A stretch of DNA of 40,902 bases from Coriobacteriales bacterium (GCA_031263105.1 JAISGJ010000042.1:1-40902); one strand, 5' to 3'. Numbered from the stretch's first letter, positions 5,234-40,902 are shown. Numbers and translations are program-made. The notes: a model not told the origin generated them from the sequence alone.

Positions 5234-5235
5234 GC

Positions 5236-6048: not shown

Positions 6049-6604
6049 CGCTCGTCGCCTCCCTCGCCATCGACGAGAACTCGACCCGGGTCCGCCCGAT
6101 GCGCTCCTGTCCGATGCGGCGGGCTGCGGCCAGCCGGGCCTCCTCGGCTTGGAGCAGCGCGACCCAACCGGACTCCTCGGGCAGGGGCGCGGGTGCGCTC
6201 ATCACTGCGTCGACGACCGCCAGCGCGAAGGCTCGCTGACGCTCGGAACCGAGCAGGAGGCCGATGCCGGGCAGCTCGCCAAGGCGCACGCGGCATTCGG
6301 TCGCCAAGGCCTCCCCCAGGTAGAACAGGCCGCCCCGGGCGCTCTCGCGCACCTTGAGGACGACGAGCATCTCGTGCGGGGCGGCCAGCGTCACGACAGT
6401 GTGGCGCCGAAGGGCCTGTGCACAGAGCCGTGCCGAGAGGCCGGGGTCGCCCTCGACCAGAATGCGCGTCCTTTGCAGACGGCCCATCCGAAGACCTGCG
6501 GCAACGCCTCCCACGCAACTCGCAGGCTCGTCGCCCTTGCGGCCCGAAGTCCCCTTGTCCGCACGCCCTGCGCCCCCGCCGCCCATCCGAGACTCCTCGC
6601 TCAT
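6041..6604 (-). CDS. phnG: C-P lyase core subunit PhnG
   Basis: PhnG is the small core subunit that pairs with PhnI and PhnH. The recognisable part runs from RTRILVEGDPGL to the C-terminal RVEFSSMARE, including FYLGEALATECRV in the middle. The ATG at 6604 overlaps the stop of the upstream permease gene (ATGA). This gives 187 aa with about 40 low-complexity residues before the conserved domain. An internal ATG (at MGRLQRTRI) is an alternative that would bring the length close to E. coli PhnG (150 aa). Confidence 0.93.
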   Translation of the reverse strand: MSEESRMGGGGAGRADKGTSGRKGDEPASCVGGVAAGLRMGRLQRTRILVEGDPGLSARLCAQALRRHTVVTLAAPHEMLVVLKVRESARGGLFYLGEALATECRVRLGELPGIGLLLGSERQRAFALAVVDAVMSAPAPLPEESGWVALLQAEEARLAAARRIGQERIGRTRVEFSSMAREATSDV

Positions 6605-8432: not shown

Positions 8433-8463
8433 GCCTCTCTGTGTGCCGACAGCCTGGCCTCCA

Positions 8464-9423: not shown

Positions 9424-9436
9424 GGCAACCTGCCCT

Positions 9437-10642: not shown

Positions 10643-10814
10643 GGTTCCTCCCTTGTCCTGTGGCGACGCGCACCGCGCGCCCTGTCTGCCATTCTCCTGT
10701 CGGATGACCGCAACAAACGATACGGAGCCTCTGTACAGGAAAGGTCAGAGGAAGGAAAAATATAGATAAAATCAGGCTTCACGGAGCGACGGGGGCGGGG
10801 CATACCAGGGAAAC

Positions 10815-10904
10815 GGGACGTCGAGGACGCCGTCCCCTACGGATGCGGCCATGCCGCCACATCTCCCCTGCCACACCTGTAGGGGACGGCATCCTCGACG
10901 TCCC
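10815..10904. repeat. Long inverted repeat between phnD and the flavoprotein gene
   Basis: Arms 10815-10840 and 10879-10904 are 26 bp each with a single mismatch, separated by 38 bp. The arm contains ggggacggc next to cctcgacgtccc. RNA from either strand could fold into a strong stem. It probably ends transcription after the flavoprotein gene or is a dispersed repeat; there is no T-tract beside it. Confidence 0.85.
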
Positions 10905-10931
10905 GCCCCAGTTTGCCCCGATGCCTGGCAC

Positions 10932-10966
10932 GGGGGGGGGGGGGGGGGGGCACGTCCCCCCCCCCC
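10932..10966. repeat. G19 tract facing a C11 tract (hairpin)
   Basis: Nineteen G at 10932-10950, then cacgt, then eleven C at 10956-10966. It lies 12 bp past the flavoprotein stop codon. On either strand the two runs can pair into an 11 bp G:C stem. Tract length may vary between cells or be misassembled. Confidence 0.85.
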
Positions 10967-10977
10967 AACCCTTGAGG

Positions 10978-12858: not shown

Positions 12859-12898
12859 CTGAATCCTTTCTCGTGCCTATTCGAGTACTTCAGTGAAC

Positions 12899-12947
12899 TT
12901 CACCGGAATCGGTGAACCCCACCAGAACGTCTCGTACTTTAGGTACG
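12899..12947. promoter_or_regulatory. Candidate operator pair in divergent flavoprotein/luxR region
   Basis: Two inverted repeats lie in the 150-285 bp between the divergent genes. ttcaccg-gaat-cggtgaa spans 12899-12916, and cgtac-tttag-gtacg spans 12933-12947. Both are plausible sites for the adjacent LuxR-type HTH. The function is inferred from position and symmetry only. Confidence 0.5.
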
Positions 12948-13008
12948 GGCGCTCCCGATACCTATCAATGACCGTGGGTATTCCCAAAAGATTTGTCCCC
13001 CAAATCAG

Positions 13009-14592
13009 GTGGTTTTACAATCGGCTCAAACGAACTGCGGATTCGGGTGGCGCGCATGCAGCGCAACCGAGCAAAATGAGCTACCATGGTCGAATCGAGG
13101 AGAATCAAGCGGACAACAACTGAGGAAGGAACGGCTGTTTCTTTTGAGCGGCAATCTCGGGGGAAACCGACAAAACCTGCCGGGCGCTGTGAGCGTTGCC
13201 AGTCTGGGGGCTTACGCTGCACTGCTTCTGTTCCTTGTTGACGGCGCAGAGCAGTTCTCGGCCCTGGTGGCTGACGGCATCGATATCGTATACCTTTTCG
13301 TAGCGGGGCTTTGTGCAATCATGTGCTGCGGACTGGTCTTTGTGGTGCAAGGCTCGCTGTCTGCGACCACGTCATACCGTTACCTTGGCAGCAAGGCGGG
13401 AGCTGTCACTGCCTTTGGGTACGTGTCTTGTCTCCTTGCGAGCCATGTGCCCTCCCCCGCTGCACTTTGCGTTGCGCTCAGCGTTCTGTTCGGATACGGA
13501 CTGGCATTGCTCGGTCTGAGCAAAGGCCTGGTTCTGTGCAGCCTGCAACGGCACACACGCTGGCGCTATGCGGCCACCTCCGGTCTGATTGCGAGTGCGG
13601 TCAAACTGCTTTTGGGCGTCATGCCCTCCCCTGCGCTCGGTGTCTGTGTGGGAATCCTCATAGTTCTTGCATCGCTTGCGCCGAAAACCATAGAACTGTG
13701 CAAAGACCCTGATGCCGCAAGCGACCTCTCGGCCTTGGATGTCGCCAAGGGCGTTGCGAGCAGGAACTGGATTTTCTTGCTTGGATTACTGCTGAGCATA
13801 GCCATCGGAGCATGGGTCTGGAACGACGTCAACACCAACGAAACGGCTCTCTTCACACTGAACCCCAGCGCTCGGTCAGGGGTTTCTGTGGGGTCGTTTC
13901 TTGCCGCGCTCCTGTTGGTCTTTCTCGTCAGCGACAGGTCACTGAAACGACTTGACACCCTGATGCCGGTTTTCCCCGTTACGTGCATAGCCATGAATGT
14001 GCTCAATTGGTTTCTCAGCGTCTGGCAGGACGGGCTGAGCATAGGCGGCGGCTTCGAATCATCTGCGGGGGCGTTTCTTGGGAGCATACTGATTGGATTC
14101 CCCATCACGCTTCTTTTTATCGTGTTCGTCACACGTCTGGCGGACAAGCCGAACAACGACAGCCTTTCCCCTGCCTTCACATACGGCCTGTTCACTTTGC
14201 TCACCGCAGCGTTCTTCCTGCTCTATACCATGCTTCAATCGGTGATGGCATTTGAAACCAGCAGGGTCGTCGATATGTCGCTGAAAGTCACCTACCTGGT
14301 CATCGCGGTAATCCACATGACCGTGCTCACCCAACGAAAGGCCCAGACAGCAGAACCGCTGTCAGAGCTGAGAATCGAAGAGGCCGCCAAGCGATTCTTG
14401 CTGTCCAAGCGCGAGACCGAGATAGTGCAGCTGCTGATGCAGGGGAGAAGCGTGCCCTTCATTGCGGAAACCCAGTTCGTCTCCCAAAACACGGTCAGGA
14501 CCCACGTTAAGCGGATTTACACAAAAACCGGCGCCCACAGCCGCGACGAGCTCCTTGACATCATGTACGACCTGGGCGAAAACTCAGCCTAG
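13009..14592 (+). CDS. Membrane-anchored LuxR-family transcriptional regulator
   Basis: About twelve hydrophobic segments fill the first three quarters (from VASLGAYAALLLFLV to YLVIAVIHMTVL). A C-terminal LuxR-type HTH follows (LSKRETEIVQLLMQGRS, then NTVRTHVKRIYTKTG). This architecture is widespread in Eggerthellaceae, typically beside a flavoprotein reductase gene, and suggests that the membrane part senses the substrate. The longest frame starts at GTG 13009. Its first 44 residues do not look like protein, and a GAGGAAGG at 13122-13129 points to a later start, perhaps TTG at 13144 just before the first helix. The TAG stop at 14590-14592 coincides with the edge of an inserted repeat element, so the original C-terminus may have been slightly different. 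Confidence 0.88.
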   Translation: MVLQSAQTNCGFGWRACSATEQNELPWSNRGESSGQQLRKERLFLLSGNLGGNRQNLPGAVSVASLGAYAALLLFLVDGAEQFSALVADGIDIVYLFVAGLCAIMCCGLVFVVQGSLSATTSYRYLGSKAGAVTAFGYVSCLLASHVPSPAALCVALSVLFGYGLALLGLSKGLVLCSLQRHTRWRYAATSGLIASAVKLLLGVMPSPALGVCVGILIVLASLAPKTIELCKDPDAASDLSALDVAKGVASRNWIFLLGLLLSIAIGAWVWNDVNTNETALFTLNPSARSGVSVGSFLAALLLVFLVSDRSLKRLDTLMPVFPVTCIAMNVLNWFLSVWQDGLSIGGGFESSAGAFLGSILIGFPITLLFIVFVTRLADKPNNDSLSPAFTYGLFTLLTAAFFLLYTMLQSVMAFETSRVVDMSLKVTYLVIAVIHMTVLTQRKAQTAEPLSELRIEEAAKRFLLSKRETEIVQLLMQGRSVPFIAETQFVSQNTVRTHVKRIYTKTGAHSRDELLDIMYDLGENSA

Positions 14593-25817: not shown

Positions 25818-27524
25818 TCACTCCCACTCGATCGTCCCCGGTGGCTTGCTCGTTATGTCGTAGACGACGCGGTTGACGCCTTCGACTTCGGCGACCACAC
25901 GCGAGGAGATGCGGGCGAGGAGGTCGTGGGGGAGCTTGGCCCAGTCGGCGGTCATGGCGTCGCGGGACTCGACGGCGCGAACGATGACGGGGTAGGCGTA
26001 GGTGCGCTCGTCTCCCATGACGCCGACGCTCTTGATGTCGGGCAGCACCGCGAAGTACTGCCACACGCTCCGGTCGCTGTCGCGTATGCCGGTCTGCTCG
26101 TACAGCGCCTGGTTGTAGGCGTCGATCTCCTCGCGCACGACGGCGTCGGCGTTGCGCAGCACCTCCAGGCGCTCCGGCGTGACCTCGCCGATGATGCGCA
26201 CGGCAAGTCCGGGGCCGGGGAAGGGCTGGCGGTGCACGATGTGGTCGGGCAGCCCCAGGGCGGTTCCCAGCGCACGCACCTCGTCCTTGAAGAGGTGGCG
26301 CAAGGGCTCGATGAGCTCAAAGTGCACGCCGTCGGGGAAGGGTATGAGGTTGTGGTGGCTCTTGATGGTGGCGGCCGACTTGGATGCCTTCGCCGAGCCG
26401 CTCTCGATGACGTCGGGGTAGATGGTGCCTTGGGCGAGATAGGAGACCGCAGCGCCGCAGCGCCGTTCGATGCGGGCTGCCTCCTCGAAGAACACGCGCC
26501 AGAACTCGCTGCCGATGATGCGCCGCTTCTGCTCGGGGTCGCTCACGCCCGCCAGGGCCGCCGCATAGCGCGCCTCGGCATGGACGTGCACGAAGTCCAC
26601 GTCGAACTGCCGCGCGAACACCCTCTCGACCTCCTCGGGCTCGCCTTTGCGCAGAAGCCCCGTGTCCACGAAGACACAGGTCACCTGTCTGCCGATGGCA
26701 TGTGCAAGCAAGGCGGCCACGACGCTCGAGTCGACGCCGCCGGAAAGCCCGAGGACGACGCGCCCCTCCCCTACCTGCGCACGCACCTCGGCGGTGGTTC
26801 CCTCGATGATGGAGTCCATCGTCCAGGAGGGCTCAAGGCCTGCGACGTCGAAGAGGAAGCGGCAGAGCATCTGGTTGCCGAACGCGGTATGGTGCACCTC
26901 GGGATGAAACTGGGTCGCATAGAGCCCGCGAGCCCGGTCCTCCATCGCGGCGACGGGGGTCGTCGGCGTCGAAGCCGTGACGGCGAAGCCGGGCGGGGCG
27001 GCGCCCACGCTGTCACGATGGCTCATCCAGACGGTCTGGGTGTCCGGCGTGCCGTCGAGCAGCAGGGAGGAGCCGTCGCAGCGGGTCAGCTCCGCAGGGC
27101 CGTACTCGCCGACGTCCGTCTTGGGAACCGTGCCCCCCAGGGCGGCCGCCATCGCCTGCATGCCGTAGCAGAAGCCGAGCACCGGGACGCCCAGTTCGAG
27201 GAGTCCGGGGTCGAGCGCGGGGGCATCGTCCGCATAGACGCTCGCGGGGCCGCCGGAGAGGATAAGGGCCGCAGGCGGATCGGCCTCAAGCGCCGCGACG
27301 TCGGTGTCGAAGGGCAGTATCTCGGAGTACACCTTGAGGTCGCGCACGCGACGGGCGATGAGCTGCCCGTACTGTGCGCCGAAGTCGATGACGACGACCC
27401 GCCCTTCCCGGGCGCGCCTTCCTGCGTCAGACGGCGCCCCCGTGCATCCCGCCGCGCCCTGCCCTGCCGCCGTGCGCCCCGCTCCGCCCTGCACTGCCGC
27501 CTTCTGCTCCGCTGCCTCCTGCAC
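25818..27524 (-). CDS. guaA: GMP synthase (glutamine-hydrolysing)
   Basis: Converts XMP to GMP with glutamine and ATP in purine synthesis. The glutaminase half has [25 protein letters not shown], the catalytic Cys in LGFCYGMQ, and FHPEVHHT. The synthetase half has the PP-loop [11 protein letters not shown] and [15 protein letters not shown], and the protein ends KPPGTIEWE as usual. The frame is open up to ATG 27587, but a -10 box lies inside that extra part. GTG 27524 has AGGAG 5 nt upstream, so I place the start there (568 aa). An Ala-rich leader of about 40 residues remains before the domain, absent from E. coli GuaA (525 aa). Confidence 0.95.
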
Positions 27525-27561
27525 TGCCGCTCCTCTCGGGGTCTCTCGAAATGACCTTCCC

Positions 27562-27567
27562 AGTATA
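27562..27567 (-). promoter_or_regulatory. Probable -10 element (TATACT) of guaA
   Basis: On the minus strand TATACT lies 37 nt upstream of the GTG start. No convincing -35 is seen 17 bp away. It supports guaA having its own promoter, separate from the fix operon upstream, and supports the internal start. Confidence 0.5.
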
Positions 27568-27580
27568 CCCAAAAGCGGCA

Positions 27581-27665
27581 CGGGCATCGTGACTGCGGGC
27601 GGCGGCCAAACGGCGGGGCGGCGGGCGCACGGCGGGCGCGAGGGCGGGCATCGTGACTGCGGGCG
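27581..27665. repeat. 21 bp direct repeat, two copies 64 bp apart
   Basis: The copies at 27581-27601 and 27645-27665 are identical (cgggcatcgtgactgcgggc plus g). Between them is a run of gcgggc words. The region lies between fixX and guaA. Confidence 0.75.
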
Positions 27666-27680: not shown

Positions 27681-27986
27681 TCAGCCGTAGCGGTACTCCA
27701 CGCCCATCGTCGGCTGGGGGTTGCGCCACTCCTTGACGATGCTTCCTGCGCAGGCGATGCGGCAGGTCCCGCACTCCAGGCATCCCGCGAAGTCGAAGAG
27801 CTTCTTCCCCGTGTCGTCCATGCGGTACAGGGCGGCGGGACAGACGCGCACGAGCTTGAGGAACTCCTCGGTGTCCGGGTCGTCGACCAGCACGATATGC
27901 GGGTTGCCCTCGTCCACCTCGTATTTGTTCAGCGAAAGGTAGCCGTCCACGTTGACGGTGACAGGCTCGGTCTCGTTCATGGTCAT
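27681..27986 (-). CDS. fixX: FixX-type ferredoxin
   Basis: 101 aa ferredoxin-like protein that works with FixC to pass electrons between ETF (FixAB) and the quinone pool. Cysteines C69, C72, C75 and C79 (CLECGTCRIAC) would hold a 4Fe-4S cluster; C49 lies in the VCPAALY motif. The start ATG overlaps the fixC stop (ATGA). It is the last gene of the nine-gene carboxylate operon. Confidence 0.93.
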   Translation of the reverse strand: MTMNETEPVTVNVDGYLSLNKYEVDEGNPHIVLVDDPDTEEFLKLVRVCPAALYRMDDTGKKLFDFAGCLECGTCRIACAGSIVKEWRNPQPTMGVEYRYG

Positions 27987-29269
27987 AGGGCCTTCATGCC
28001 TCCTCTGACGTCTTTGAGCAGATTGACGATGCCGACCCTTTTTACGAGGGGCATGAGGGAGCGCCTCAAGGGCTGGACCGGCTTTCCGTCGACGATGAAC
28101 AGGGTGTTCATGACGTCGCGCGCCAGCCGGGGATACTCGTCGAACAGGCGCGTCGTGGACTCCATGAAGTGCGGGAAGCGCCTGAACTGCCGCAGGTCCT
28201 TGAGCACGAAGCTCTCTGCCAGTGCATCGACATAGCATCCGAGGCCGGCCTTCGAGGTGTCCCGTGCGTCCAGGGCGGCAGCGACGCTGCGCCCCGCATG
28301 CATCCCGGCCGCCACCGCGTAGTCCATGCCTCGCACCATGTACCCCAGGTTGAGGCACATCATCGCCGAGTCCCCCGCGAGCAGCACCCCCTCGCCGACA
28401 AGGTCGGGCATCGCGTCGAAGCCGCCCTCGGGCACCATGTGGCCGCTGTGCTCCACGACCTTGCCGCCCTTGACGAGCGGCGCCACCACGGGGTGGGCCT
28501 TCAGGTCCTCGAGCATCTGGCAGATGGGGACGTGCGCACGTGCCAGGTCGGAGATGGTCGCGACGAGCCCGAGGGAGACGGAGCCCCGGTTGGTGTACAG
28601 GAAGCCGCCCCCCACATGCCCCTTGGTCGCGTCGCCGACGAACAGCCAGGCGGCGCCGTCGCCCTCGCCGAGCAGGAACCGCTCCTCGATGAGCGAGGGC
28701 GCAAGCTCGATCACCTGTTTGACGCCGACGGCCATGGCCGAGGGCTCGGGACGCGCAAAGCCCACCGCCTGCTCCGTCAGAAGCGAGTTCGCGCCGTCGC
28801 AGAGCAGCACGGCCTCGGCGCTTATCTCGTCCTCCCCGGCGATCACCCCGCAGACCCTGCCGTCCTTGACGAGCAGCCTCTCCACGGCGATGCCGCAGAT
28901 GTACTCGGCACCGGCCGCCTCGGCCTGCGCGGCCAGCCATTGGTCGAACGGGCCGCGAAGCACCGAGTACGAGGCCTGGCCCTCCTGCGTCATCTGCGAG
29001 GATCCGAAGCCTACCGTGAGGCCGGCGTCGGGGGTGATCATCGAGATGCCCTCGCGGACGATGCGGCGCTCGAGCGGTGCCGTGCCCTCGAAGTCGGGGA
29101 ACACCTCCCGCAGCGAATGGGAGTATATCCTGCCGCCGGTCATGTTCTTGGCACCGGCATACGTGCCGCGCTCGATGACCAGGACGCTCTTCTCGGCCTT
29201 GGCGAGCTCGTGGGCCGCCACGGGGCCGGCACAACCGGAACCCACCACTATCGCATCGAAATCAGCCAT
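27983..29269 (-). CDS. fixC: FixC-type electron transfer flavoprotein-quinone oxidoreductase
   Basis: 428 aa FAD protein, membrane-associated in its family. The Rossmann motif IVVGSGCAGPVAA opens the protein; IERGTYAGAKNMTGG and, later, GVLLAGDSAMMCLNLGYMVRGMDYA are typical of FixC/ETF-QO. It lacks the 4Fe-4S domain found at the C-terminus of mitochondrial ETF-QO; FixX supplies it. ATG 29269 is preferred over a GTG three codons earlier because AAGGTG lies 6 nt upstream. One base separates it from the ligase gene stop. Confidence 0.94.
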   Translation of the reverse strand: MADFDAIVVGSGCAGPVAAHELAKAEKSVLVIERGTYAGAKNMTGGRIYSHSLREVFPDFEGTAPLERRIVREGISMITPDAGLTVGFGSSQMTQEGQASYSVLRGPFDQWLAAQAEAAGAEYICGIAVERLLVKDGRVCGVIAGEDEISAEAVLLCDGANSLLTEQAVGFARPEPSAMAVGVKQVIELAPSLIEERFLLGEGDGAAWLFVGDATKGHVGGGFLYTNRGSVSLGLVATISDLARAHVPICQMLEDLKAHPVVAPLVKGGKVVEHSGHMVPEGGFDAMPDLVGEGVLLAGDSAMMCLNLGYMVRGMDYAVAAGMHAGRSVAAALDARDTSKAGLGCYVDALAESFVLKDLRQFRRFPHFMESTTRLFDEYPRLARDVMNTLFIVDGKPVQPLRRSLMPLVKRVGIVNLLKDVRGGMKAL

Positions 29270-29270
29270 G

Positions 29271-30986
29271 TCACACACCTTTCAACGGGGCAGGCTCGAC
29301 CGCCTCCAAGGCCGCCCCTGCGGGCGCCTCTGCTGCCGCCTTTGCGGCCGCCTCTGCAGCCGCCTCTGCAGCCGCCTCTGCAGCCGCCTCTGCGGGCGGC
29401 CCTGCGGCCGGCTCGAACATCCCGAGGACGTCCTGCTGCCGCAGCCGTGCCTTCTGTGTCTTTCCTATGCTGTTGGTCGGAAGCTCGTCCATGAAGAGCC
29501 AGCGCCTCGGCTTCTTGTAGCCCGCAAGGCGATGCCTGCACCATTCGAGCATCCGCTCGCTCGTCAGCCCGCTCCCAAGGCGGGGCACGACAGCCGCGCC
29601 TATCGTCTCCTCGTAATAGTCGTCGGGAATCCCTATCACCGCGCAGTCGCAGACGTCGGGGTGTTCGAGCAGGGCCTGCTCTATCTCCTGGGCGTAGACG
29701 TTCTCGCCGCCGCTCCTGATGATGTCCTGGCTGCGCCCGACGAAGTAGTAGTGCCCGTCGGCGTCCTTGCGCAGCCAGTCCCCTGTGGCGAACCATCCGT
29801 CCGCAGACGGCCGCACCGTCCCCTCCCTGCCGTCCTCGTCGCCCAGGTAGCCCTTGAACACCATCGGGGAGCGGACAAGCGCCTCGCCCGTCTCGCCCGG
29901 GCCCACCTCGTGCCCGTCGGCATCGACCAGGCGTATCTCGAACAGGCTGTTGACGGTCCCCACGCTCTCGACCAGCCCCGGGTCCTCTGCGAGGGCGGCA
30001 CGTGTGACGGCCTCCCCGGTCGCCGAGCATATCTCGGTCGACCCCCAGGAGACACGCAGGGAGGCATGGGGGAACAGGGAGAAGATCGTCTCCGTGTACG
30101 GCAGGGAGCACCTCCCCGCAGAGGCCTGCGCCTCGCACACGCTGCCGAGGTCGAAGGACTCCCAGCCCTCATGGGCGATCAGGCGGCTGTAGACGACGGG
30201 CGGCACCATCAGCACCTCGGTCGCCCGATAGCGCTCGATGAGCCCCAGCACCAGCGCGGGGTCGAGCCTGTCCGCAAGGACCAGGGAGCCGGCAAGGGCC
30301 GCCATCTTGAGCACGCAAAGCAGCCCTGCGGCATGGTAGAGGGCCGAGGAGGTCAGCATGACCTCGTGGGGGCGCCGGTTCCCGTTCTCGATGGCGAGGA
30401 CCATCGCCTGGTCCCGGAGCATGCGCTGCGTCCTGACGACGCCCTTCGAATGCCCCGTCGTCCCGCTGGTGAAGAGGATGAGCGCCTCGTCGTCCTCCGC
30501 AAGGTCCGCCTGCGCCTCGTGCATGCCGCCAAGGGACATGACCGTCTCCCAGTCCACGCAGCGGCAGGCGGGGCGTCCCGGCAGGGCATGGCGGGCGATG
30601 CACGTCGTCACCGCCCCGTGCAGGCGGATGAGCTCCAAGGCCTTGTCGAGGTATGCGTCGCCGCACAGGAGCGTGTCGCATGCGGCGATGTGCATGGCCC
30701 GGGCGAGCTCACGGGGAAGCAGGCGCGTGTTGAGGGGGAGCAGCGCCGCCCCCAGCTTCTGGCAGGCATACCAGAGCACGACCCAGTCGGTGCAGTTCTG
30801 CCAGTACGCGGCGACGCGCCTGCCCTTGCCGATGCCGAGGGCCCTCATGCCGTTGGCAAGCCGGTTGCTCTGCTCGTTCAACTCGCGCCAGGTGAGCGCC
30901 GCGTCCTTGCAGGCGACCGCGAGCCTGTCAGGGAAGCACTGCGCGTTCCTGATAAGGAAGTAACCAAACTGAAACACATTCACCAT
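29271..30986 (-). CDS. CaiC-like acyl-CoA ligase
   Basis: 571 aa ANL-superfamily enzyme expected to activate a carboxylate as acyl-AMP and then CoA thioester. Motifs: LFTSGTTGHSKGVV (171-184), SWGSTEICSATGE (adenine region), ATGDWLRKDADGHYY, and GRSQDIIRSGGENVYAQEIE. The C-terminal catalytic Lys is in the region NSIGKTQKARLR. It resembles crotonobetaine/carnitine-CoA ligase. After the fold ends, about 45 residues of Ala-rich EAAA repeats follow. The ATG at 30986 directly abuts the GGAGG Shine-Dalgarno, so initiation may be at GTG 30977, 9 nt away. It lies in the fix/cai-like operon, between the DASS permease and fixC. Confidence 0.92.
   Translation of the reverse strand: MVNVFQFGYFLIRNAQCFPDRLAVACKDAALTWRELNEQSNRLANGMRALGIGKGRRVAAYWQNCTDWVVLWYACQKLGAALLPLNTRLLPRELARAMHIAACDTLLCGDAYLDKALELIRLHGAVTTCIARHALPGRPACRCVDWETVMSLGGMHEAQADLAEDDEALILFTSGTTGHSKGVVRTQRMLRDQAMVLAIENGNRRPHEVMLTSSALYHAAGLLCVLKMAALAGSLVLADRLDPALVLGLIERYRATEVLMVPPVVYSRLIAHEGWESFDLGSVCEAQASAGRCSLPYTETIFSLFPHASLRVSWGSTEICSATGEAVTRAALAEDPGLVESVGTVNSLFEIRLVDADGHEVGPGETGEALVRSPMVFKGYLGDEDGREGTVRPSADGWFATGDWLRKDADGHYYFVGRSQDIIRSGGENVYAQEIEQALLEHPDVCDCAVIGIPDDYYEETIGAAVVPRLGSGLTSERMLEWCRHRLAGYKKPRRWLFMDELPTNSIGKTQKARLRQQDVLGMFEPAAGPPAEAAAEAAAEAAAEAAAKAAAEAPAGAALEAVEPAPLKGV
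29319..29390. repeat. 12 bp tandem repeat, about six units, at the 3' end of the ligase gene
   Basis: The unit tgcagccgcctc (exact at 29355-29390, variants before) encodes alternating AEAA on the minus strand. This gives a predicted continuous helix at the C-terminus of the ligase. The period keeps the frame. Confidence 0.88.
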
Positions 30987-31082
30987 CCTCCTGAAGGCAC
31001 GGGGGAAGCGTGGGAGAAGTGCGGGCGGGACGGGTGGCGCCGCCGCCCCGCCTGCCCGGGCGGGGCGGGTGGGGCGGCGGCC

Positions 31083-31151
31083 CGGGCTGCGCGCGGCCCA
31101 CGGGCGGCGCGCAGCCCGCAGGCGGCACGCGGCACGCAGGCGGCACGCGGC
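31083..31151. repeat. GC-rich hairpin and 17 bp direct repeats between DASS permease and ligase genes
   Basis: A perfect 12 bp stem (31083-31094 with 31107-31118, 12 nt loop) is followed by two 17 bp copies of cgcaggcggcacgcggc (31117-31133 and 31135-31151). On the operon mRNA this hairpin sits just after the DASS stop codon and could stabilise or partly terminate the transcript. Confidence 0.75.
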
Positions 31152-31152
31152 C

Positions 31153-32559
31153 TCAGATCGACCAGATGCCCATGAGGTTCCAGACGAAGTACGCCACGTA
31201 CATGCCGGCCAGTGCGATCACGCAGTAGACGGCGCAGTAGGCAGTCGTGGCCTTCTCGGTGACCCAGCCGGTGCCGGCGCCGTGCAGAGCGGTCAGGTAG
31301 ACCGAGCTCTGATAGGGCAGGAACCAGCCCACGACGAAGGCGTTGAGGACGAAGCCGATGACCCAGGGGTTGATGCCTGCGGCAATGGCAAGCGGGAAGA
31401 GGAAGGCCGTGAACACCGAGAGGTAGCCTATCTCGGAAAGGATGAGGAAGCGGACCGCAAGGGTCATGAGCGCAAGCACCGGTATCAGCAGGAAGGGGTT
31501 GCCGAAGAACGCCTCGGTGTAGGGGCCGACGGTGTTGACGAGCCAGTCGGTGATGCCCACGGACGGGAGCACCTTCGAAAGGCTGACGGCGCAGCCGATG
31601 AAGATGAGCGTCTCCCACGCGACCGCCGTGCGCCATTTCGCTGCAGGCAGGATGCCGAAGACGAGCGAGGCGACGAGCGCGAACAGCGCGACGGCGTACT
31701 CGGGGATGCCCAGCTGGCTCTTGAGGACCCACAGCAGGACGGTCAGGCCCATGATGATGCCCATGAGCTTCTCGTTCTTGCTCCACGCGCCGAGCTCGCT
31801 CAGGCGCTGGTCGAGAAAGCCGACGTCCGTCTTGGTCTTGACCTTGGGGCGGTACCTCATGCTGATATAGAGGAAGTTGCCCACGAAGACGAACAGGAGC
31901 CAGGGCAGCGCGCACATCGCCCAATAGAGCATGGTGTACTGGGCCTGTATCTCGGGGCTGAACATGCCGACCAGCGCCGCCGTGGTCACCGACGCGCTGA
32001 TGAACATCACCGGCGAGAAGCAGATGGCGGAGTAGTACGAGAGGAAGAACCCGGTCGCCTCCCTCCCCTCGTTCTTGTAGCCCATGGCCTCGCTCATGCC
32101 TCGGACCAACGGCGAGAGGATCGAGCACTTCGCCGCCTTGCTGGGAATGACGGGGGAGGTGACCGTGGTCACCGCCAAAAGGCCCAGCACCTGCCCCGAG
32201 AAGCTCTTGGGGAACAGGCGCAGGAGGATGATGGAGATGCGTTCGAGCAGCCCGCACTCCTTGATCGCCGCGCCCAGTGCGAAGGCCGCGACCAGCAGCC
32301 AGTAGGTGGTGTCCGCGAAGGCGCTGAACGAGTCGGTTATCTTCACCTGGGCCGCAACGATGAAGAGGGTGCTCATGAGGAGGGCGATGGCGGCCTCGTG
32401 GAAGGCGCGGCCCGCCCACAGGACGACCGCGGCCGCGAGGATTCCCAGAACCCTCATGCTCGAGACCTCCAGGCCCGAGGGCGGAGGGACGAGGGCGATG
32501 CCCACGCCCACGAGGACCGCCACGATGATACAGACGAGTCTGCCTTTGGTGAGTTTCAT
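31153..32559 (-). CDS. DASS-family anion permease
   Basis: 468 aa polytopic membrane protein, about 11-12 hydrophobic segments, of the divalent anion:Na+ symporter type that carries di- and tricarboxylates and related anions (CitT/TtdT-like). Landmarks: VPPPSGLEVSSMRVLGI at the N-terminus, TSPVIPSKAAKC in the first half, GFVLNAFVVGWFLPYQSS in the second. ATG 32559 has AGGAG upstream. Its place between the acyl-CoA dehydrogenase and ligase genes suggests it imports the substrate, or exchanges substrate for product. Confidence 0.88.
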   Translation of the reverse strand: MKLTKGRLVCIIVAVLVGVGIALVPPPSGLEVSSMRVLGILAAAVVLWAGRAFHEAAIALLMSTLFIVAAQVKITDSFSAFADTTYWLLVAAFALGAAIKECGLLERISIILLRLFPKSFSGQVLGLLAVTTVTSPVIPSKAAKCSILSPLVRGMSEAMGYKNEGREATGFFLSYYSAICFSPVMFISASVTTAALVGMFSPEIQAQYTMLYWAMCALPWLLFVFVGNFLYISMRYRPKVKTKTDVGFLDQRLSELGAWSKNEKLMGIIMGLTVLLWVLKSQLGIPEYAVALFALVASLVFGILPAAKWRTAVAWETLIFIGCAVSLSKVLPSVGITDWLVNTVGPYTEAFFGNPFLLIPVLALMTLAVRFLILSEIGYLSVFTAFLFPLAIAAGINPWVIGFVLNAFVVGWFLPYQSSVYLTALHGAGTGWVTEKATTAYCAVYCVIALAGMYVAYFVWNLMGIWSI

Positions 32560-32634
32560 GTTCGACTCCTTTGAAACGAAACGAAGGGCTCATGCCGACG
32601 GCCGCCGACGGCTGTCAGCGGCTGCTGGCAGCTG

Positions 32635-33771
32635 TCAGCGGCGCTCCCTCTGCAGGGCCTTGAAGATGATGTTCCTCTGTATCTCGCTGGTCCCCTCGCC
32701 GGTTATGATCACGCAGGCGTCCTCGTAGTAGCGGGAGAGCCCGAAGTCCTTGAGCAGGCCCATGCCGCCGCAGAGCTCCATGGCGCGCTGGCAGACCTGC
32801 TGCGCCATCAGGGTGCTGTTCAGCTTGGCGATGGAGCCGCCCTTGCCGATGGAGTGCCCCGCGTCGAGCTCGGAGACCAGATGCATCAGGTACCCCTTGT
32901 TGACCTGGATCGAGCTGTACATGTCCGCGAAATAATGCTGGAGCGCCTGGAAGTCGGTGAGGTGCCTGCCGAAGGCCTCGCGCTCGGACGCATACTCCCA
33001 GGCCTTCTCGAAGGCCCCTTCGGCGTACCCGACGGCACGGGCGGCGATGACGAGGCGTGCCCCGTCCAAGGTGCTGAGCGAGATGTGCAGGCCCTTGTTG
33101 ACGGTCCCGCACAGGCTCCATCGCGGCACGCGGCAGTCCTTGAAGTAGACGTCGCCCGTGTCCGAGCCGCACCAGCCGAACTTGTCGTAGTGGGCCCCGT
33201 AGCTGACGCCGGGGGCGTTCGCGTCCACAAGGAACACGCTGATGCCGGGATTCCCCTCCTCGTCGACGGTCTTGGCACTGACCTGCCAGCTGCCGACGGC
33301 GCAGCGGTACGAGATGAAGCTCTTGGTGCCGTTGATGACCCACTCGTCCCCGTCGAGGACGGCGGTCGCCTGGATGGCCTTCGAGTCGGAGCCGGCGGAC
33401 GGCTCGGTATAGGCCATGCCCATGAAGCGCCCCTCCTCGACGATGCGCGGGAGGAAGACCTCCTTTTGCCGCTCGTTGGCGAAGCTCAGCAGCTTGTTGG
33501 CGTTGTTCGAGCAGTTCAGCAGCGAGCCCAGGGTGTTGTTCACCTGGCAGCCCCGGATGATGAGCAGGAGCAGCGTGGTCATGCTCTCGCCGAAGCCTCC
33601 CTGCTCCTCGGGGGCGACCAGCCGGGTGAAGCCCAGCTCCGCAAGTCGCTGCTGCATCCATACGGGGTACTCGTCCTGCACATCGAGCTCCTTGATGCGC
33701 GGCTGCACCTCCTGCTCTATGAACTCGTCGAGTATCTTGAGGTACATCTCTTGGTTCTCCGTCAGTTCCAT
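32635..33771 (-). CDS. Acyl-CoA dehydrogenase / enoyl-CoA reductase (CaiA-like)
   Basis: 378 aa FAD enzyme of the acyl-CoA dehydrogenase family, usual length. MAYTEPSAGSD binds flavin/substrate, GTKSFISY follows, and GEGTSEIQRN carries the catalytic base (E359). In cai-type operons the homologue works as a reductase, using electrons from FixAB to saturate an enoyl-CoA. Direction here is inferred from context. ATG 33771 lies 122 nt after the CaiB-like stop, an unusually long gap that contains a poly-G tract and tandem repeats. Confidence 0.94.
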   Translation of the reverse strand: MELTENQEMYLKILDEFIEQEVQPRIKELDVQDEYPVWMQQRLAELGFTRLVAPEEQGGFGESMTTLLLLIIRGCQVNNTLGSLLNCSNNANKLLSFANERQKEVFLPRIVEEGRFMGMAYTEPSAGSDSKAIQATAVLDGDEWVINGTKSFISYRCAVGSWQVSAKTVDEEGNPGISVFLVDANAPGVSYGAHYDKFGWCGSDTGDVYFKDCRVPRWSLCGTVNKGLHISLSTLDGARLVIAARAVGYAEGAFEKAWEYASEREAFGRHLTDFQALQHYFADMYSSIQVNKGYLMHLVSELDAGHSIGKGGSIAKLNSTLMAQQVCQRAMELCGGMGLLKDFGLSRYYEDACVIITGEGTSEIQRNIIFKALQRERR

Positions 33772-33816
33772 GACGTGTTCCTTTCTCCTGTGTTCCCCGG
33801 CCTTCCGTGCGGCCCA

Positions 33817-33897
33817 GGGGGGGGGGGGGGGGGTCTATGGCCGGGCGCTCCGTGGCCGGGGGCTTGATGGCCGGGCGCCCGGTGGCCGGGCGCTACT
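33817..33897. repeat. G17 tract plus four 15 bp tandem repeats
   Basis: Seventeen G at 33817-33833, then units of 15 bp (tggccgggcgctccg and variants) at 33838-33897. The last unit contains the stop codon of the CaiB-like gene (33893-33895). In another frame the array would read as APGH-type pentapeptides. Confidence 0.88.
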
Positions 33898-35158
33898 TGG
33901 ATACGAGCGACGCGGCGACCGCGCCGCATTCCTTGAGGGCGGCGATGCGCTCCTCGTTGTAGCCCAGCAGCTCCCGCAGGACCAGGTCGCTCTCCTGGCC
34001 GAGCAGGGGGGCGGGCTTGTAGGCCTCGCAGGGAGTGCCGAGGAACTTGGGGACGGTGGCGATGTCGATGAAGTCCTCGCCCGAGGTCAGGTCCCTTATC
34101 TTGACGAAGTCGTTGCGCGACTGCCAGTGCGGGTTCCTGTAGGCGTCCTCGGCGTTGTTGATCTTCGAGGTAGGGATGCCCAGCCGCCTGAACTCGGCCT
34201 CCACCTCGGCGGCCGTGTGCGTGGAGAGGTAGGCCGTCCAGATGACGTCCATCTTCTCGACCTTCTCCGGGTCGTCCTGCCCGCAGGTGTCCATGTAGGG
34301 GAACTCCACCTCGCCGTCCACGCCCATCAGGTCGCAGAACTTCTTCCAGATGCCGAGGCCCCAGACGCCGACAGCGACCCATTGCCCGTCGCTGCACTCG
34401 TAGTAGCCGAAGGGGCGCCACAGCTGGTTCAGGGGGCCCGAGCGCTCGTACAGCCCCTCGCCGTTGAGCTGCGAGCACCAGTGGTAGACCATCAGGTAGG
34501 CCGCGCTCTCGTACATCGAGACGTCCACGACCTGGCCTTTGCCGGTGCGCTGGACGTTTATGTAGGCGGCGAGGGCAGCGACGGCTGCCTGGTGGGCGGT
34601 CACGCTGTCGCAGACGATGGGATTGGCCGTCAGATAGGGGCCGTCGGGCATGCCCTGCATGGCCGCGAGGCCGCTGAAGGCCTGGGCGACAGGGTCCACG
34701 CAGGGATTGCCCAGAAGCTCGGGCGACCCGCCGCTCTCAGGCAGGCCGAAGCCGGTGACATGGACGATGACGAGCCGGGGGTTGCTGCCCATGGCCAGCT
34801 CGTCGGTGGCCCCGTGCTTGCCGATGTTGGGCACGCTGTTTATCCAGATGTCGCATTCCTTGACCAGGTCGCAGAACACCTGCCGTGACTCGGGGGACAC
34901 GTCGAAGTTCATGTTGAACTCGAAGCTGTTCATGTTGCGGCCCAGGCTTATCCATTTGGGCACCGAGCCGGCCTCGTTGACCCTGCGGCCGATACGGGAG
35001 GTGTCCCCCCTGCCCGGGACCTCGATCTTGATGATCTCGGCCCCCATGTCACCGAGCCAGCGTGCGGCGAAGGGGCCGGCGAACGCCATCCCGGTCAGCA
35101 TGACGCGCATGCCTTGCAGGGGCCCTCCTTGCCCTTCGGTGATCGAATTCCGTTCCAT
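33893..35158 (-). CDS. CaiB-like class III acyl-CoA transferase
   Basis: 421 aa. Moves CoA from a product acyl-CoA to the incoming acid, so ATP is needed only to prime the cycle. Family marks: MRVMLTGMAFAGPFAARWLGDMGAEIIKIE at the N-terminus, the likely catalytic Asp D184 in IVCDSVTAHQAA, VVDVSMYE, and the C-terminal GIPTSKINNAEDA. ATG 35158 has AGGAAGG upstream; any longer frame would be low-complexity sequence. It sits between the ETF genes and the acyl-CoA dehydrogenase, the gene company seen in carnitine-type operons. Confidence 0.93.
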   Translation of the reverse strand: MERNSITEGQGGPLQGMRVMLTGMAFAGPFAARWLGDMGAEIIKIEVPGRGDTSRIGRRVNEAGSVPKWISLGRNMNSFEFNMNFDVSPESRQVFCDLVKECDIWINSVPNIGKHGATDELAMGSNPRLVIVHVTGFGLPESGGSPELLGNPCVDPVAQAFSGLAAMQGMPDGPYLTANPIVCDSVTAHQAAVAALAAYINVQRTGKGQVVDVSMYESAAYLMVYHWCSQLNGEGLYERSGPLNQLWRPFGYYECSDGQWVAVGVWGLGIWKKFCDLMGVDGEVEFPYMDTCGQDDPEKVEKMDVIWTAYLSTHTAAEVEAEFRRLGIPTSKINNAEDAYRNPHWQSRNDFVKIRDLTSGEDFIDIATVPKFLGTPCEAYKPAPLLGQESDLVLRELLGYNEERIAALKECGAVAASLVSK

Positions 35159-35246
35159 GGCCTTACCTTCCTTTCGTTCGTTGTGCGCGCCCGCCTTGTA
35201 GGGGCGCGCCCTCGAAGGGACGCGGGGTGCGGGGCCTTCCCGTGCA

Positions 35247-35346
35247 CCCTCCCCTGCGGCGGCCCCACCGCAGGGGAGGGCGCTCGGGCGGCGGGCCCTT
35301 GGCGACCCCGGCGTCCCTGGCATCCCTGGCGTCTCTGGCGTCTCTG
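35247..35346. repeat. Strong hairpin and 9 bp tandem repeats downstream of fixB
   Basis: A perfect 13 bp stem (35247-35259 with 35268-35280, 8 nt loop) is followed by five 9 bp units (gcgtctctg, gcgtccctg, gcatccctg and similar) at 35302-35346, ending 4 bp before the fixB stop. In the mRNA the repeats come first and the hairpin after. It may be an RNA-processing or stability element within the operon. Confidence 0.82.
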
Positions 35347-35350
35347 GCGT

Positions 35351-36259
35351 TCAGCGCCCTATCTGGGCACGCAGCGCGTCGGCGATCTCGAACAGGTCCC
35401 CCACCGCGCCGTAGTCGCAGTTCTTGAGGATGGGGGCGTTGGGGTCCTTGGTCACCGCGACCACCAGCTTCGCGCCGCGTATCCCCACCGTGTGCTGGAC
35501 CTGGCCCGACACCCCCAGGGAGAAGTAGAGCTTGGGACTGACCTGGTCGCCCGAAAGGCCGATGTAGCCCGGGAACCAATGGCTGTTCTCCGCCAGGCCG
35601 CGGGTGCAGCCGACCTCCGCCCCCAGGGCCTGCGCCAGGTCGTAGGCGGTCTGAAGCTCCTCCTTCGACGTGAAGCCCATGCCGGCGCAGACCACGCGCT
35701 CTGCCTTCGTCAGATCGACGCCGCCCAGGTCGAGCGCCTGGGTCTCGACGAGCACGGCCCGCCCGTCGCCCTCCACCTCCCGCACGACGAGGGGGGACGC
35801 CTCCTCGCAGGGCGCGGACGGCGCGAAGAGGCCTGCGGGCAGGCCCACGACGCCGAAGCCCCGGATGCGCTCCTCGTAGACCACGGCGCCGCCATAGGCC
35901 AGCCGCCTGGCGCCGATGCCGCCCTCCTCCAAGGAGAACTCGGCGACGTCGCTTGCCATCGGGCAGTCCAGGTAGCCCGCGACCCTGGCCGCGACGTCGC
36001 GGCCCGTCACGTCGGCGATGACGACGAAGGCCTCGGCCTCGCGCTCTGCCAGCAGCCCTGCCATGTGCTTGGCATAGGCCTCGGGAAGCGCCTCCCTCCC
36101 CTGGAGGCAGAGCACCTCGGAAAATCCCAGGCCCCTGTAGGCCTCCACGTCCTGCGCGGACGTCACTATCAGGGCCGCGTCCCGCTGAAGCGACGAGGCG
36201 CAGGACGCCGCCTCCGCCGCCAGCAGGGGCGTGGACCCGAACATATACAAGCCTGCCAT
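35351..36259 (-). CDS. fixB: Electron transfer flavoprotein alpha subunit (FixB/EtfA)
   Basis: 302 aa. The C-terminal FAD domain is clear: CAGMGFTSKEEL, GLSGDQVSPKLYFSLGVSGQVQH, VAVTKDPNAPI and the final DYGAVGDLFEI. With FixA it forms the ETF that links the acyl-CoA dehydrogenase to FixCX. The ATG shares one base with the fixA stop (TAATG). A longer upstream frame is only a shadow of fixA. Confidence 0.94.
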   Translation of the reverse strand: MAGLYMFGSTPLLAAEAASCASSLQRDAALIVTSAQDVEAYRGLGFSEVLCLQGREALPEAYAKHMAGLLAEREAEAFVVIADVTGRDVAARVAGYLDCPMASDVAEFSLEEGGIGARRLAYGGAVVYEERIRGFGVVGLPAGLFAPSAPCEEASPLVVREVEGDGRAVLVETQALDLGGVDLTKAERVVCAGMGFTSKEELQTAYDLAQALGAEVGCTRGLAENSHWFPGYIGLSGDQVSPKLYFSLGVSGQVQHTVGIRGAKLVVAVTKDPNAPILKNCDYGAVGDLFEIADALRAQIGR

Positions 36260-37020
36260 TACAGCACTCCTTCCTTTTTGAGGGCGGCAAGGAGGCCGGC
36301 GGCGAGCTCTGCGGCCGTTTCGCCCTCTATCAGATTGCATCTGCGCTCGCTGAGGTACCCTCGGACGCCCACCCGCTCCAAGGTGCTCTCAAGGCTGACG
36401 CCCAGCCCGGCGGCATCCTTCTCGTCGACCGGCCTCCGCTTGGCCGCAAGGGCCTCCTTCAGGCTCGGGATAGGCGCAAGGCATGTCTCGGGGAGGACGG
36501 AGAGGACGGCGGGCAGGGGCACCTCGACGACCTGGACGCACTCGTCCATCCTGCGGCGCACCAGCAGCGTCCCTTCCTTGACCTCGATGTTGTTCACGGC
36601 GGTCACGGTCGGCCAGTCGAGGAGGGCGCCGATGCGGGAGGGCGTCTGGCGCGCGTAGTCGTCGCTGGAGCCCTCGGCGCACACCACTGCGACCGCGCCC
36701 GTCTGCCGCGCGACGGCCGCAAGGGCACGGGCGGCTATCTGCGCAGAGGCCTCCACCTCGCCCGTATCGACCCAAATGCCCTCGTCGAGCCCTCGGGAAA
36801 GGGCATCGGAAAAGGACTTGCGGACAGGGGCCGGCCCGCACGAGACGCCCAGCGCCCTGCCCTGCAGGGCCTCGGCCATCCGACGGCCCGCCTCTATCGC
36901 GTTGCGGTCGTATTCGCTTATCTTTCCTCGGGCCGAGCCGAAGTCGACCGACAGGTCGTCCCTGACCTTGACGTCGGACTCGTCCAGGACCCATTTGTAT
37001 GCAACGATCACATCTGACAT
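36259..37020 (-). CDS. fixA: Electron transfer flavoprotein beta subunit (FixA/EtfB)
   Basis: 253 aa. VIVAYKWVLDESDVKV at the start, EYDRNAIEAGRRMAEA, and a central VCAEGSSDDYARQTPSRIGALLDWPTVTAV match FixA/EtfB. ATG 37020 has GAAGGAAG upstream. The preceding 108 bp gap to the SLC13 stop holds a G21 tract. Whether this ETF bifurcates electrons cannot be decided from what I can see. The presence of FixC and FixX, which deliver to or from quinone, resembles bifurcating FixABCX sets. Confidence 0.94.
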   Translation of the reverse strand: MSDVIVAYKWVLDESDVKVRDDLSVDFGSARGKISEYDRNAIEAGRRMAEALQGRALGVSCGPAPVRKSFSDALSRGLDEGIWVDTGEVEASAQIAARALAAVARQTGAVAVVCAEGSSDDYARQTPSRIGALLDWPTVTAVNNIEVKEGTLLVRRRMDECVQVVEVPLPAVLSVLPETCLAPIPSLKEALAAKRRPVDEKDAAGLGVSLESTLERVGVRGYLSERRCNLIEGETAAELAAGLLAALKKEGVL

Positions 37021-37088
37021 TCGAGCTTCCTTCCGTTCGGTCGTCCGGTGCCCAAGAGGGGCCTCGGGGGGCATGGCCGCCCCCTGCC

Positions 37089-37109
37089 GGGGGGGGGGGG
37101 GGGGGGGGG
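37089..37109. repeat. G21 tract between SLC13 permease and fixA genes
   Basis: Twenty-one consecutive G on the plus strand, so a C-run in the operon mRNA, 20 bp after the SLC13 stop and about 70 nt before the fixA start. Nearby ggcaggggg in the RNA could pair with part of it. Confidence 0.88.
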
Positions 37110-37128
37110 CAGCGGGGCGGCGCATCTC

Positions 37129-38637
37129 TCACCAGCCATACAGCAGGGGGGTGAAGACGATGATGACAACGACGAGCAGCAGGCAGAAAGGGGTTCCTAC
37201 CTTGAGGTATTCCGTGAAGCGGTAGCCTGCGGACAGGGTGAGGGTCATAGGGGGCGTGCCGATGGGCGTGGCAAAGCAGACGCTCGAGGCGAGCACGATG
37301 CCCACCACCATGGTCGTGACGCAGAAGCCCATGCCCTGCGCGAGGAAGATTCCCATGGGCGCCATCATGGCGGCCACGGCCGTGTTGCTTATCAGGCAGG
37401 AGAGGACGGCCGTCACGACCACGACGGCCGAGAACACGAGCAGGGGCTGGGCGTTGCTCCCGCCGCACAGCCCGATGATGCCCGAGGCGAGCGTCCTGCC
37501 GACACCCGACGCCTCGAGGCCGGCGGAGAAGCCCAGGGAGCCGCCCAGGATGACCACGGACGACCAATCGACCTTCCGCACGACGGTCCCAAGGTCGATG
37601 CAGCGCAGGGCGACGAGGAGCAGCGCGCAGAGCATGGCCACCGCGCCGACCGTCCACAGCCCCGCGACGATGCCCACGATGCAGAGCACGAAGACCGTCG
37701 CCGCAAGGCACATGCGGCGGTACGAGGGCAGGCGGCGCTCCTCGGCAGGGGCGCCGACGGGGATCCCGGCGGGGGCGGGGGCGGGGGCGGGGGCAGGGGC
37801 GGAGGAGGCGGAGGAGGCCACGGCGGCGGCAGGGGCGGGAGGGCCGACGGGGGCGGGGGCGGGGACCTCGGCAAGGACGGCCGTCCTGCCGCCCGTCTCC
37901 CCGGCCCCTGCAAGCAGGCGACGGCCGACGGTCGAGAAATAGAGCACCCCGACGACAAGCAGCGGAAGCGCCCCCTTCAGGAGGCTGAAGAAGCCGAAGG
38001 TCGGCAGGCCCGAGCTGTCGAGGACGCCCTGGACGACCAACTGGGGGGTGGAGCCTATCAGGGTCAGGTTCCCGCCGAGGACCGCAAAGACCCCCACGAC
38101 CATGTAGAGGGGCCTGGACGAGACGGCGCCCCTCGCAGCGGGCGCCCCTCCTTGGGGACGGGCCGCCAACGAGTCGACGAGCGGCAGGAACGCCGCCGCG
38201 ACGGCCGTGTTGCTCATGCAGGCCGAGAGGACCGCCACCGTGCTCCCGATGAGCCCGACCGGCGCTCTCCTCCTGTTCGCAAGCAGGCGCCCAAGGAGCG
38301 AGCCCACCCTGTCGAGCAGGCCCGACTCGTACAGGGCGAGCCCGATGACGAGCATTCCGACCACCATCATCAAGGTGTCGTTGGCGAAGCCTGCAAAAGC
38401 CTCGGGGAAGCTGATGATCCCGCATGCCGCCATGGCAAGGGCCCCCAGCATCGCGGCGACCGGCAGGGGGACGACTTCCGTTATGAACATGATCATGACG
38501 AGAACAAGGATTACGATGGCGACGAGATCAGGGGCAATCACAGGCAACGCTTTCGGAACAGGTGGCGCTTTCAGAGCAGGCAACGCTTTCGGAACAGGCA
38601 ACGCTTTCGGAGCACGTGACGCTTTCGAGGCAGGCAA
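37129..38637 (-). CDS. SLC13-family permease
   Basis: 502 aa polytopic permease. Two copies of the family motif SNTAVAA (142-148 and 417-423) mark the two inverted halves that bind Na+ and anion. A loop of about 50 residues rich in Ala and Pro (251-300), encoded partly by a gcgggg repeat, separates the halves. The N-terminal 33 residues are repeats of PKALPV read from an 18 bp tandem repeat. The start is uncertain: TTG 38637 is the longest and lies about 17 nt from the inferred transcription start, while other TTG codons in the repeats or GTG 38541 are possible. It is the first gene of the operon, divergent from the AAA+ regulator. Together with the DASS permease it suggests an organic-anion substrate. 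Confidence 0.88.
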   Translation of the reverse strand: MPASKASRAPKALPVPKALPALKAPPVPKALPVIAPDLVAIVILVLVMIMFITEVVPLPVAAMLGALAMAACGIISFPEAFAGFANDTLMMVVGMLVIGLALYESGLLDRVGSLLGRLLANRRRAPVGLIGSTVAVLSACMSNTAVAAAFLPLVDSLAARPQGGAPAARGAVSSRPLYMVVGVFAVLGGNLTLIGSTPQLVVQGVLDSSGLPTFGFFSLLKGALPLLVVGVLYFSTVGRRLLAGAGETGGRTAVLAEVPAPAPVGPPAPAAAVASSASSAPAPAPAPAPAGIPVGAPAEERRLPSYRRMCLAATVFVLCIVGIVAGLWTVGAVAMLCALLLVALRCIDLGTVVRKVDWSSVVILGGSLGFSAGLEASGVGRTLASGIIGLCGGSNAQPLLVFSAVVVVTAVLSCLISNTAVAAMMAPMGIFLAQGMGFCVTTMVVGIVLASSVCFATPIGTPPMTLTLSAGYRFTEYLKVGTPFCLLLVVVIIVFTPLLYGW

Positions 38638-38648
38638 CGCTTTCGGGG
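38541..38648. repeat. 18 bp tandem repeat, six units, at the 5' end of the SLC13 gene
   Basis: The unit caggcaacgctttcggaa occurs exactly at 38541-38558 and 38577-38594, with close variants at 38559, 38595, 38613 and 38631. Each unit keeps the frame and adds a possible TTG start (gaaagcg then ttg on the minus strand). Confidence 0.92.
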
Positions 38649-38660
38649 CCTTTCAGGGCG

Positions 38661-38689
38661 ATTATCGGCATTCCACAAAACAGTTTCAA
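38661..38689 (-). promoter_or_regulatory. Sigma-70-type promoter of the SLC13-fix-cai-like operon
   Basis: On the minus strand: -35 TTGAAA (38684-38689), 17 bp spacer, -10 GATAAT (38661-38666). Expected transcription start is near 38654. This is the best housekeeping-type promoter match I found in the window. Confidence 0.7.
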
Positions 38690-38711: not shown

Positions 38712-38728
38712 CATATTCGGTGAATATG
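38712..38728. promoter_or_regulatory. Candidate operator catattc-ggt-gaatatg
   Basis: Perfect inverted repeat with 7 bp arms, centred about 66 bp upstream of the inferred operon start and about 105 bp upstream of the regulator ATG. It is a plausible binding site for the Fis-type HTH of the adjacent regulator. Confidence 0.55.
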
Positions 38729-38825
38729 TGTAGTGTATTGTCACGAACTGTTCTATTGTGTTATAGGTTGTACCGTTTTGTAAATCCTTCCCTCGCGCGA
38801 CAGGGGCACCGATGAAGGCACTGCA

Positions 38826-40850
<2,025 letters not shown>

Positions 40851-40877: not shown

Positions 40878-40902
40878 GGGGGGGGGGGGGGGGGGGGGGG
40901 GG
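40878..40902. repeat. Poly-G run at the window end
   Basis: Twenty-five G reach the last base, preceded by cccgagcggg, which can form a short stem after the regulator stop. It is probably where the assembly broke. It may be a real tract like the internal ones or a sequencing artefact. Confidence 0.8.

Follow-up and report, generated by a model that had tools for sequence, protein, structure and literature searches.

The cai-fix genes of E. coli (caiTABCDE and fixABCX) encode a class III CoA-transferase, an acyl-CoA dehydrogenase (ACD), a ligase, the FixABCX proteins and a dedicated carrier, and combine CoA recycling with the reduction of an enoyl-CoA. The operon described here has the same kinds of component and is proposed to share that chemistry, although its ACD is 24% identical to CaiA, its transferase is 30% identical to CaiB, its carriers are of the SLC13 rather than the BCCT type, it has no CaiD or CaiE, and its regulator is different. 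A second E. coli system, ydiO-ydiQRST-fadK, likewise brings together an ACD, EtfAB, FixCX-like proteins and a ligase, but YdiO is 26% identical to the ACD described here, the transferase (YdiF) is a different one, and there are no SLC13 carriers. CarCDE, the caffeyl-CoA reductase, and AcrCBA, the acryloyl-CoA reductase, are ACD-EtfAB complexes without FixCX, and have in common with the present operon an EtfAB-linked enoyl-CoA reductase, a function that is probable for the ACD here; CarC is 32% identical to our ACD, which scores 294 bits against the AcrC equivalog model, below its cut-off of 640. The bbu cluster of Emergencia timonensis (PMC8364193), also from an anaerobe, shares an ACD-like flavoenzyme, class III CoA-transferases and a dedicated carrier, and differs in its BCCT-type carrier, ferredoxin, thioesterase and trimethylamine (TMA) elimination, with no ETF, FixCX or SLC13 protein listed. 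A literature search found no description of this operon, and the view that it encodes a new form of the cai-fix kind of pathway, with a substrate other than carnitine, is partly supported by the comparisons that follow.

Organization and distribution of the operon

The DNA analysed (the window) makes up one entire contig, of 40,902 nucleotides, from a 2.9-Mb Coriobacteriales genome assembled in 250 contigs, with a completeness of 86% and a contamination of 6.5%. It contains nine minus-strand genes between 38541 and 27681 and a divergent plus-strand regulator gene at 38826–40850, all of them intact. The features are as follows.

38826–40850, plus strand: AAA+ regulator of the enhancer-binding type, divergent from the operon, with Walker A/B and the Fis-type HTH intact and GAFTGA replaced (ELFGYTRGSPAASRRESSPG)
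38724–38783, minus strand: operator-like array, six ACA triplets repeating every 10 bp exactly, common to the relatives (0 of 2000 shuffles)
38712–38728, no strand: perfect 7-3-7 inverted repeat, CATATTC-N3-GAATATG
38661–38689, minus strand: TTGAAA-17-GATAAT, a sigma-70-like promoter preceding the first carrier gene
38540–38646, no strand: about 6 tandem copies of an 18-bp unit, located between the likely GTG start and the promoter-like site
37129–38541, minus strand: DASS/CitMHS carrier, two SNT motifs, Na+-symporter-like; reading frame extendable to TTG 38637 (Pfam/NCBIfam)
36259–37020, minus strand: EtfB, FixA/YdiQ type (Pfam/NCBIfam)
35351–36259, minus strand: EtfA, FixB/YdiR type (Pfam/NCBIfam)
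33893–35158, minus strand: class III CoA-transferase, sister to the CaiB clade yet outside it, catalytic Asp kept (tree, alignment)
32635–33771, minus strand: ACD/enoyl-CoA reductase, own deep clade, catalytic Glu (GEGT) (tree)
31153–32559, minus strand: SLC13 carrier of the DiT1/LaINDY branch, IPSKAAK and LSEIG replacing SNT-type motifs
29271–30986, minus strand: AMP-forming acyl-CoA ligase with a repetitive Ala/Glu-rich C-terminal tail
27983–29269, minus strand: FixC, ETF:quinone oxidoreductase-like (Pfam/NCBIfam)
27681–27980, minus strand: FixX, ferredoxin-like protein (Pfam/NCBIfam)

The nine-gene, same-strand set with its own regulator that the initial annotation had described thus holds, with the families as named: the Pfam/NCBIfam assignments are CitMHS/Na_sulph_symp (twice), ETF (twice), CoA_transf_3, Acyl-CoA_dh, AMP-binding, FixC and FixX, and the regulator has Sigma54_activat and HTH_8 domains. 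The annotated span (27681–38637) needs one correction, in that GTG 38541, and not TTG 38637, is most likely the start codon of the first carrier, since the proteins of the relatives begin there and 38540–38646 is a tandem repeat. EtfB starts at 37020 and EtfA at about 36259. Catalytic residues are kept (the CoA-transferase Asp, the ACD Glu in GEGT, the ligase TSGTTG and the regulator Walker A/B), and the sole terminator-like site on the sense strand falls within the etfB coding region. Different short tandem repeats occupy most intergenic junctions of the operon (27436–27649, 31022–31152, 33837–33894, 35300–35350 and 38540–38646), and there is a 12-bp repeat in the 3′ end of the ligase gene (29310–29414). 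Two poly-G runs, of 21 (37089–37109) and 25 nucleotides (40878–40902), may be sequencing artefacts, as the second is the contig end; we reject a chimeric assembly at the poly-G run, given the identical gene order across it in three relatives. Elsewhere in the window, 3986–14592 holds genes for phosphonate use (PhnI and ABC carriers), and an FAD_binding_2 protein (10978–12858) adjoins a LuxR-type regulator (13009–14592).

The search of other Coriobacteriia that had been suggested gave close homologues in three other genomes only (G103, G255 and G262), all Eggerthellaceae (Coriobacteriia, Actinomycetota) and hence of a different family from the window genome. The order regulator / carrier-etfB-etfA-transferase-ACD-SLC13-ligase is the same in all three, and fixC-fixX follow in two. 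Such conservation of gene order between families is, judged from these sequences, far beyond chance. The operon's ACD is present in 3 of 140 Eggerthellaceae genomes, and among 397 genomes sampled across the phylum none has it apart from the window's own; with gene content and order conserved in three genomes (one of them without fixCX) and yet so few holders in the family, the operon is real but rare. A contig scan with the ACD alone returned only unrelated ACDs (31–39% identity, which served as tree background), with matches on common peptides and no named holder of the operon, and a plasmid search with FixC returned only FixC proteins of less than 60% identity.

Three proteins are the most constrained across families: the ACD (86–87% identity between the window and the relatives), the CoA-transferase (72–78%) and the SLC13 carrier (72–74%). 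The ETF subunits, ligase and first carrier are at 50–61%. The G103 operon lacks fixCX and must therefore draw on a copy elsewhere; the nearest FixC is in a second cai-like cluster of that genome (L100:8148-16001 and L103:1-11756), which also includes an SLC13 carrier, a YdiO/CaiA-type ACD, a CaiB-like transferase, etfBA and fixX, with true CaiB and CaiC genes farther along.

Enzymes, carriers and the proposed pathway

The initial annotation had argued for a substrate other than carnitine and for trees of the ligase, transferase and dehydrogenase, and all three enzymes prove to lie outside the carnitine clades. First, the ACD forms its own deep clade, separate from CaiA, YdiO and a G103 paralogue (100/100 support). 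Second, the transferase is sister to the CaiB group but outside it. Third, the ligase is far from CaiC, which groups with the G103 ligase lig3 and not with this one. These trees are small, and the transferase and ligase backgrounds thin. The transferase has CaiB as its best NCBIfam match but scores 208 bits against a cut-off of 413, and the ligase scores 193 bits against the CaiC cut-off of 651, while the same models recognise true homologues elsewhere in G103 (CaiB at 704 bits and CaiC at 817 bits). G255 too holds a separate CaiB (96% identical, with the CaiB protein as query), so that a true CaiB exists outside the operon in two of the three relatives. Given the placement of the three enzymes and the separate CaiB genes, we conclude from the sequence comparisons that the operon is not a carnitine pathway.

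The ACD has the three domains of an acyl-CoA dehydrogenase and the canonical catalytic Glu, which is absent from CaiA and YdiO, and the transferase has a CoA_transf_3 domain (276 bits, Pfam) and an Asp that aligns with that of CaiB, as in class III enzymes. EtfB, EtfA, FixC and FixX are encoded together as a FixABCX chain; FixC and FixX are 49% and 52% identical to their E. coli counterparts, FixC scoring above a subfamily cut-off and FixX below its equivalog cut-off (NCBIfam). As annotated, none of the nine genes encodes a BCCT carrier, CaiD or CaiE. Both of the anion permeases that had been reported, as separate SLC13 and DASS types, are present, although both are members of a single superfamily (DASS/SLC13). 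In the first, both SNT motifs are of the ordinary kind. The second has as its closest solved chains the plant chloroplast dicarboxylate transporter DiT1, DiT2.1 and LaINDY-type proteins, with IPSKAAK and LSEIG where SNT-type motifs normally stand; it probably belongs to the antiporter branch, for which exchange is predicted.

Gene content, synteny, clade placement and catalytic residues are read directly from the sequence; direction, electron donor, substrate and exchange we infer. On balance we think it probable that the operon serves a CoA-recycling, flavin-linked reduction of a non-carnitine enoate. One or both carriers would import an alpha,beta-unsaturated carboxylate, with the antiporter-type SLC13 protein probably exchanging the unsaturated acid for the reduced product. 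The ligase would spend ATP on the first CoA ester and so prime the cycle; the ACD would reduce the enoyl-CoA to the acyl-CoA, with electrons from menaquinol or NADH/ferredoxin delivered via EtfAB and FixCX; and the CoA-transferase would shift CoA from the product to fresh substrate, so that no further ATP need be spent. Priming by this ligase may be dispensable, or supplied by other ligases, as it is the least conserved enzyme (50–54% identity to the relatives) and the G255 gene (L096:9370-10926) is interrupted by one in-frame stop, at codon 141, although the rest of that operon is conserved. The CoA-dependent, flavin-linked reduction of a carboxylate that was originally suggested is thus supported as regards the CoA and flavin chemistry, with a carboxylate plausible from the carriers.

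We prefer reduction to oxidation as the direction, since the operon provides for a single redox step and encodes neither a hydratase nor a hydroxyacyl-CoA dehydrogenase nor a thiolase. The set of EtfAB and FixCX is that of cai-fix and ydi, but its electrons could come from an acyl-CoA instead: the ligase or transferase would activate a saturated acid, the ACD would desaturate it, EtfAB-FixCX would pass the electrons to menaquinone, and the unsaturated product would be exported or used elsewhere. All parts are reversible in principle, and EtfAB and FixC resemble ETF:quinone oxidoreductase routes. We nonetheless regard oxidative use as unlikely, since no gene of the operon takes an enoyl-CoA further and the nearest named matches of the ACD are anaerobic reductases (the AcrC model, Bcd and the caffeyl-CoA reductase CarC).

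The substrate of the proposed reduction is most likely a small polar unsaturated acid, candidates being itaconate, mesaconate, glutaconate and zwitterionic enoates. This is suggested by the carriers together with an Asn-rich ACD segment, NCSNNANK, that is invariant in the four operons, unusually polar, and occupied by other residues in Bcd and CarC; in related structures the segment at this position is near the acyl pocket. (GEGT in place of YEGT was considered as a further substrate clue and dropped, being common among ACDs.) The same machinery might act on an aromatic or hydrophobic enoate such as cinnamate, caffeate or crotonate, as in the caffeyl-CoA or fld systems, and CarC and Bcd indeed rank among the best structurally characterised matches. 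This seems improbable, as identity to them is 32–36% only, the ACD segment is polar, and the carriers are of dicarboxylate type. A divergent carnitine, crotonobetaine or gamma-butyrobetaine pathway with an unusual carrier is very unlikely: CaiB is the best NCBIfam match of the transferase, and the SLC13 site has a Lys and a Glu that differ from the residues of structurally known relatives and would suit a zwitterion, but against this stand the score below the CaiB cut-off, the clade placements, the ACD Glu that CaiA lacks, the separate CaiB of G103 and G255 (and CaiC of G103), and the missing BCCT carrier and CaiD.

Control of the operon and sigma-54 in the family

In the three relatives the operon carries the signs of sigma-54 control. 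First, rpoN is its last gene in G103, G255 and G262. Second, the three orthologous activators have GAFTGA. Third, each has the -24/-12 sequence TGGCCA-N5-TTGCA, 66–68 nt before the first gene. In G262 the operon rpoN is the only rpoN found, and the operon's activator the only full one. The window differs at each of these points: guaA comes after fixX in place of rpoN, the regulator has RGSPAAS where its orthologues have GAFTGA and so lacks the loop of a sigma-54 activator, and no -24/-12 site with a GG/GC core faces the operon in the upstream region scanned, the last two absences being apparent in the sequence itself. The window has instead TTGAAA-17-GATAAT, which matches the sigma-70 consensus at 10 of 12 positions (2 promoter-like sites in a 500-base stretch, against 0.3 expected). 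There is no sigma-70-like site in the corresponding stretch of G103 or G262, and the one in G255 is weaker (9 of 12) and at another position. What all four share is a run of ACA triplets spaced exactly 10 bp apart, six of them in the window and G103 (0 of 2000 shuffles) and three in each of G255 and G262 (0–1 of 2000 shuffles).

We infer from these features both the binding of the array and the switch of sigma factor. The divergent regulator would bind the phased ACA triplets as its operator, and would have worked with sigma-54 in the ancestor, probably, and with sigma-70 in the window lineage; the simplest account is that the window activator still binds but now acts with sigma-70. The on-switch of the operon thus appears to have changed from one sigma factor to another in this genome. 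AAA+ activators that have lost the sigma-54 loop and act with sigma-70 have been reported, R. capsulatus NtrC among them, along with TyrR and Caulobacter NtrC (PMC10274813, PMC3162934). Unlike in those cases, close orthologues here still have GAFTGA, an operon rpoN and a -24/-12 site, and the change can therefore be traced within one operon.

It could be objected that the missing GAFTGA is an assembly error, with sigma-54 control persisting, since the genome is fragmented and incomplete and the contig has poly-G runs. We doubt this, because frame and length are maintained on either side of the loop, the activator adjacent to the one other rpoN of the window genome keeps GSFTGA, and the -24/-12 site and operon rpoN are missing as well. 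An operon-type rpoN elsewhere in the genome is possible given its incompleteness.

Sigma-54 genes are not confined to these operons. In EGGERTHELLACEAE, 31 of the 140 genomes have rpoN and 32 have activators; an activator lies on the same contig within 14 kb for 29 of 35 rpoN matches (within 3 kb for 20), and the pairing of rpoN with a nearby activator is about 1:1 in Eggerthellaceae. With the focal operon left out and the window genome's own rpoN included, an ACD occurs in 14 of 27 rpoN neighbourhoods and in 0 of 14 control stretches (Fisher 0.0006, species not being independent). The ACD-holding neighbourhoods are mostly ligase-ACD-rpoN-activator, with etfBA too in seven, and the E. lenta type strain has the same arrangement with RpoN box and GAFTGA intact. 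In E. lenta DSM 2243 (L203, L209 and L210; 3332454-3351958), rpoN and its activator lie inside a cluster of CaiB-like transferases, a hydratase, a ligase, a YdiO-like ACD and etfBA.

Taken together, and tentatively, we propose a new anaerobic pathway of non-carnitine enoate reduction whose ancestral operon had its own sigma-54 and activator, rewired to sigma-70 in the window lineage by the joint loss of the operon rpoN, the GAFTGA loop and the -24/-12 site, and that sigma-54 in Eggerthellaceae acts as a local factor, linked to individual activators and often to CoA-ester redox operons. The regulatory change, as read from sequence, is the more surprising part of the result. Two surveys describe the Actinomycetota as effectively without sigma-54 (PMC12316311, PMC3162934), and neither text mentions Eggerthella; sigma-54 genes are thus found in a phylum said to lack them. 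The operon permits a comparison of sigma-54 and presumed sigma-70 control within one operon, and sequenced isolates are among its likely holders. Gut Eggerthellaceae depend for their living on the reduction of compounds from diet and host, and the operon would make one such substrate concrete and testable.
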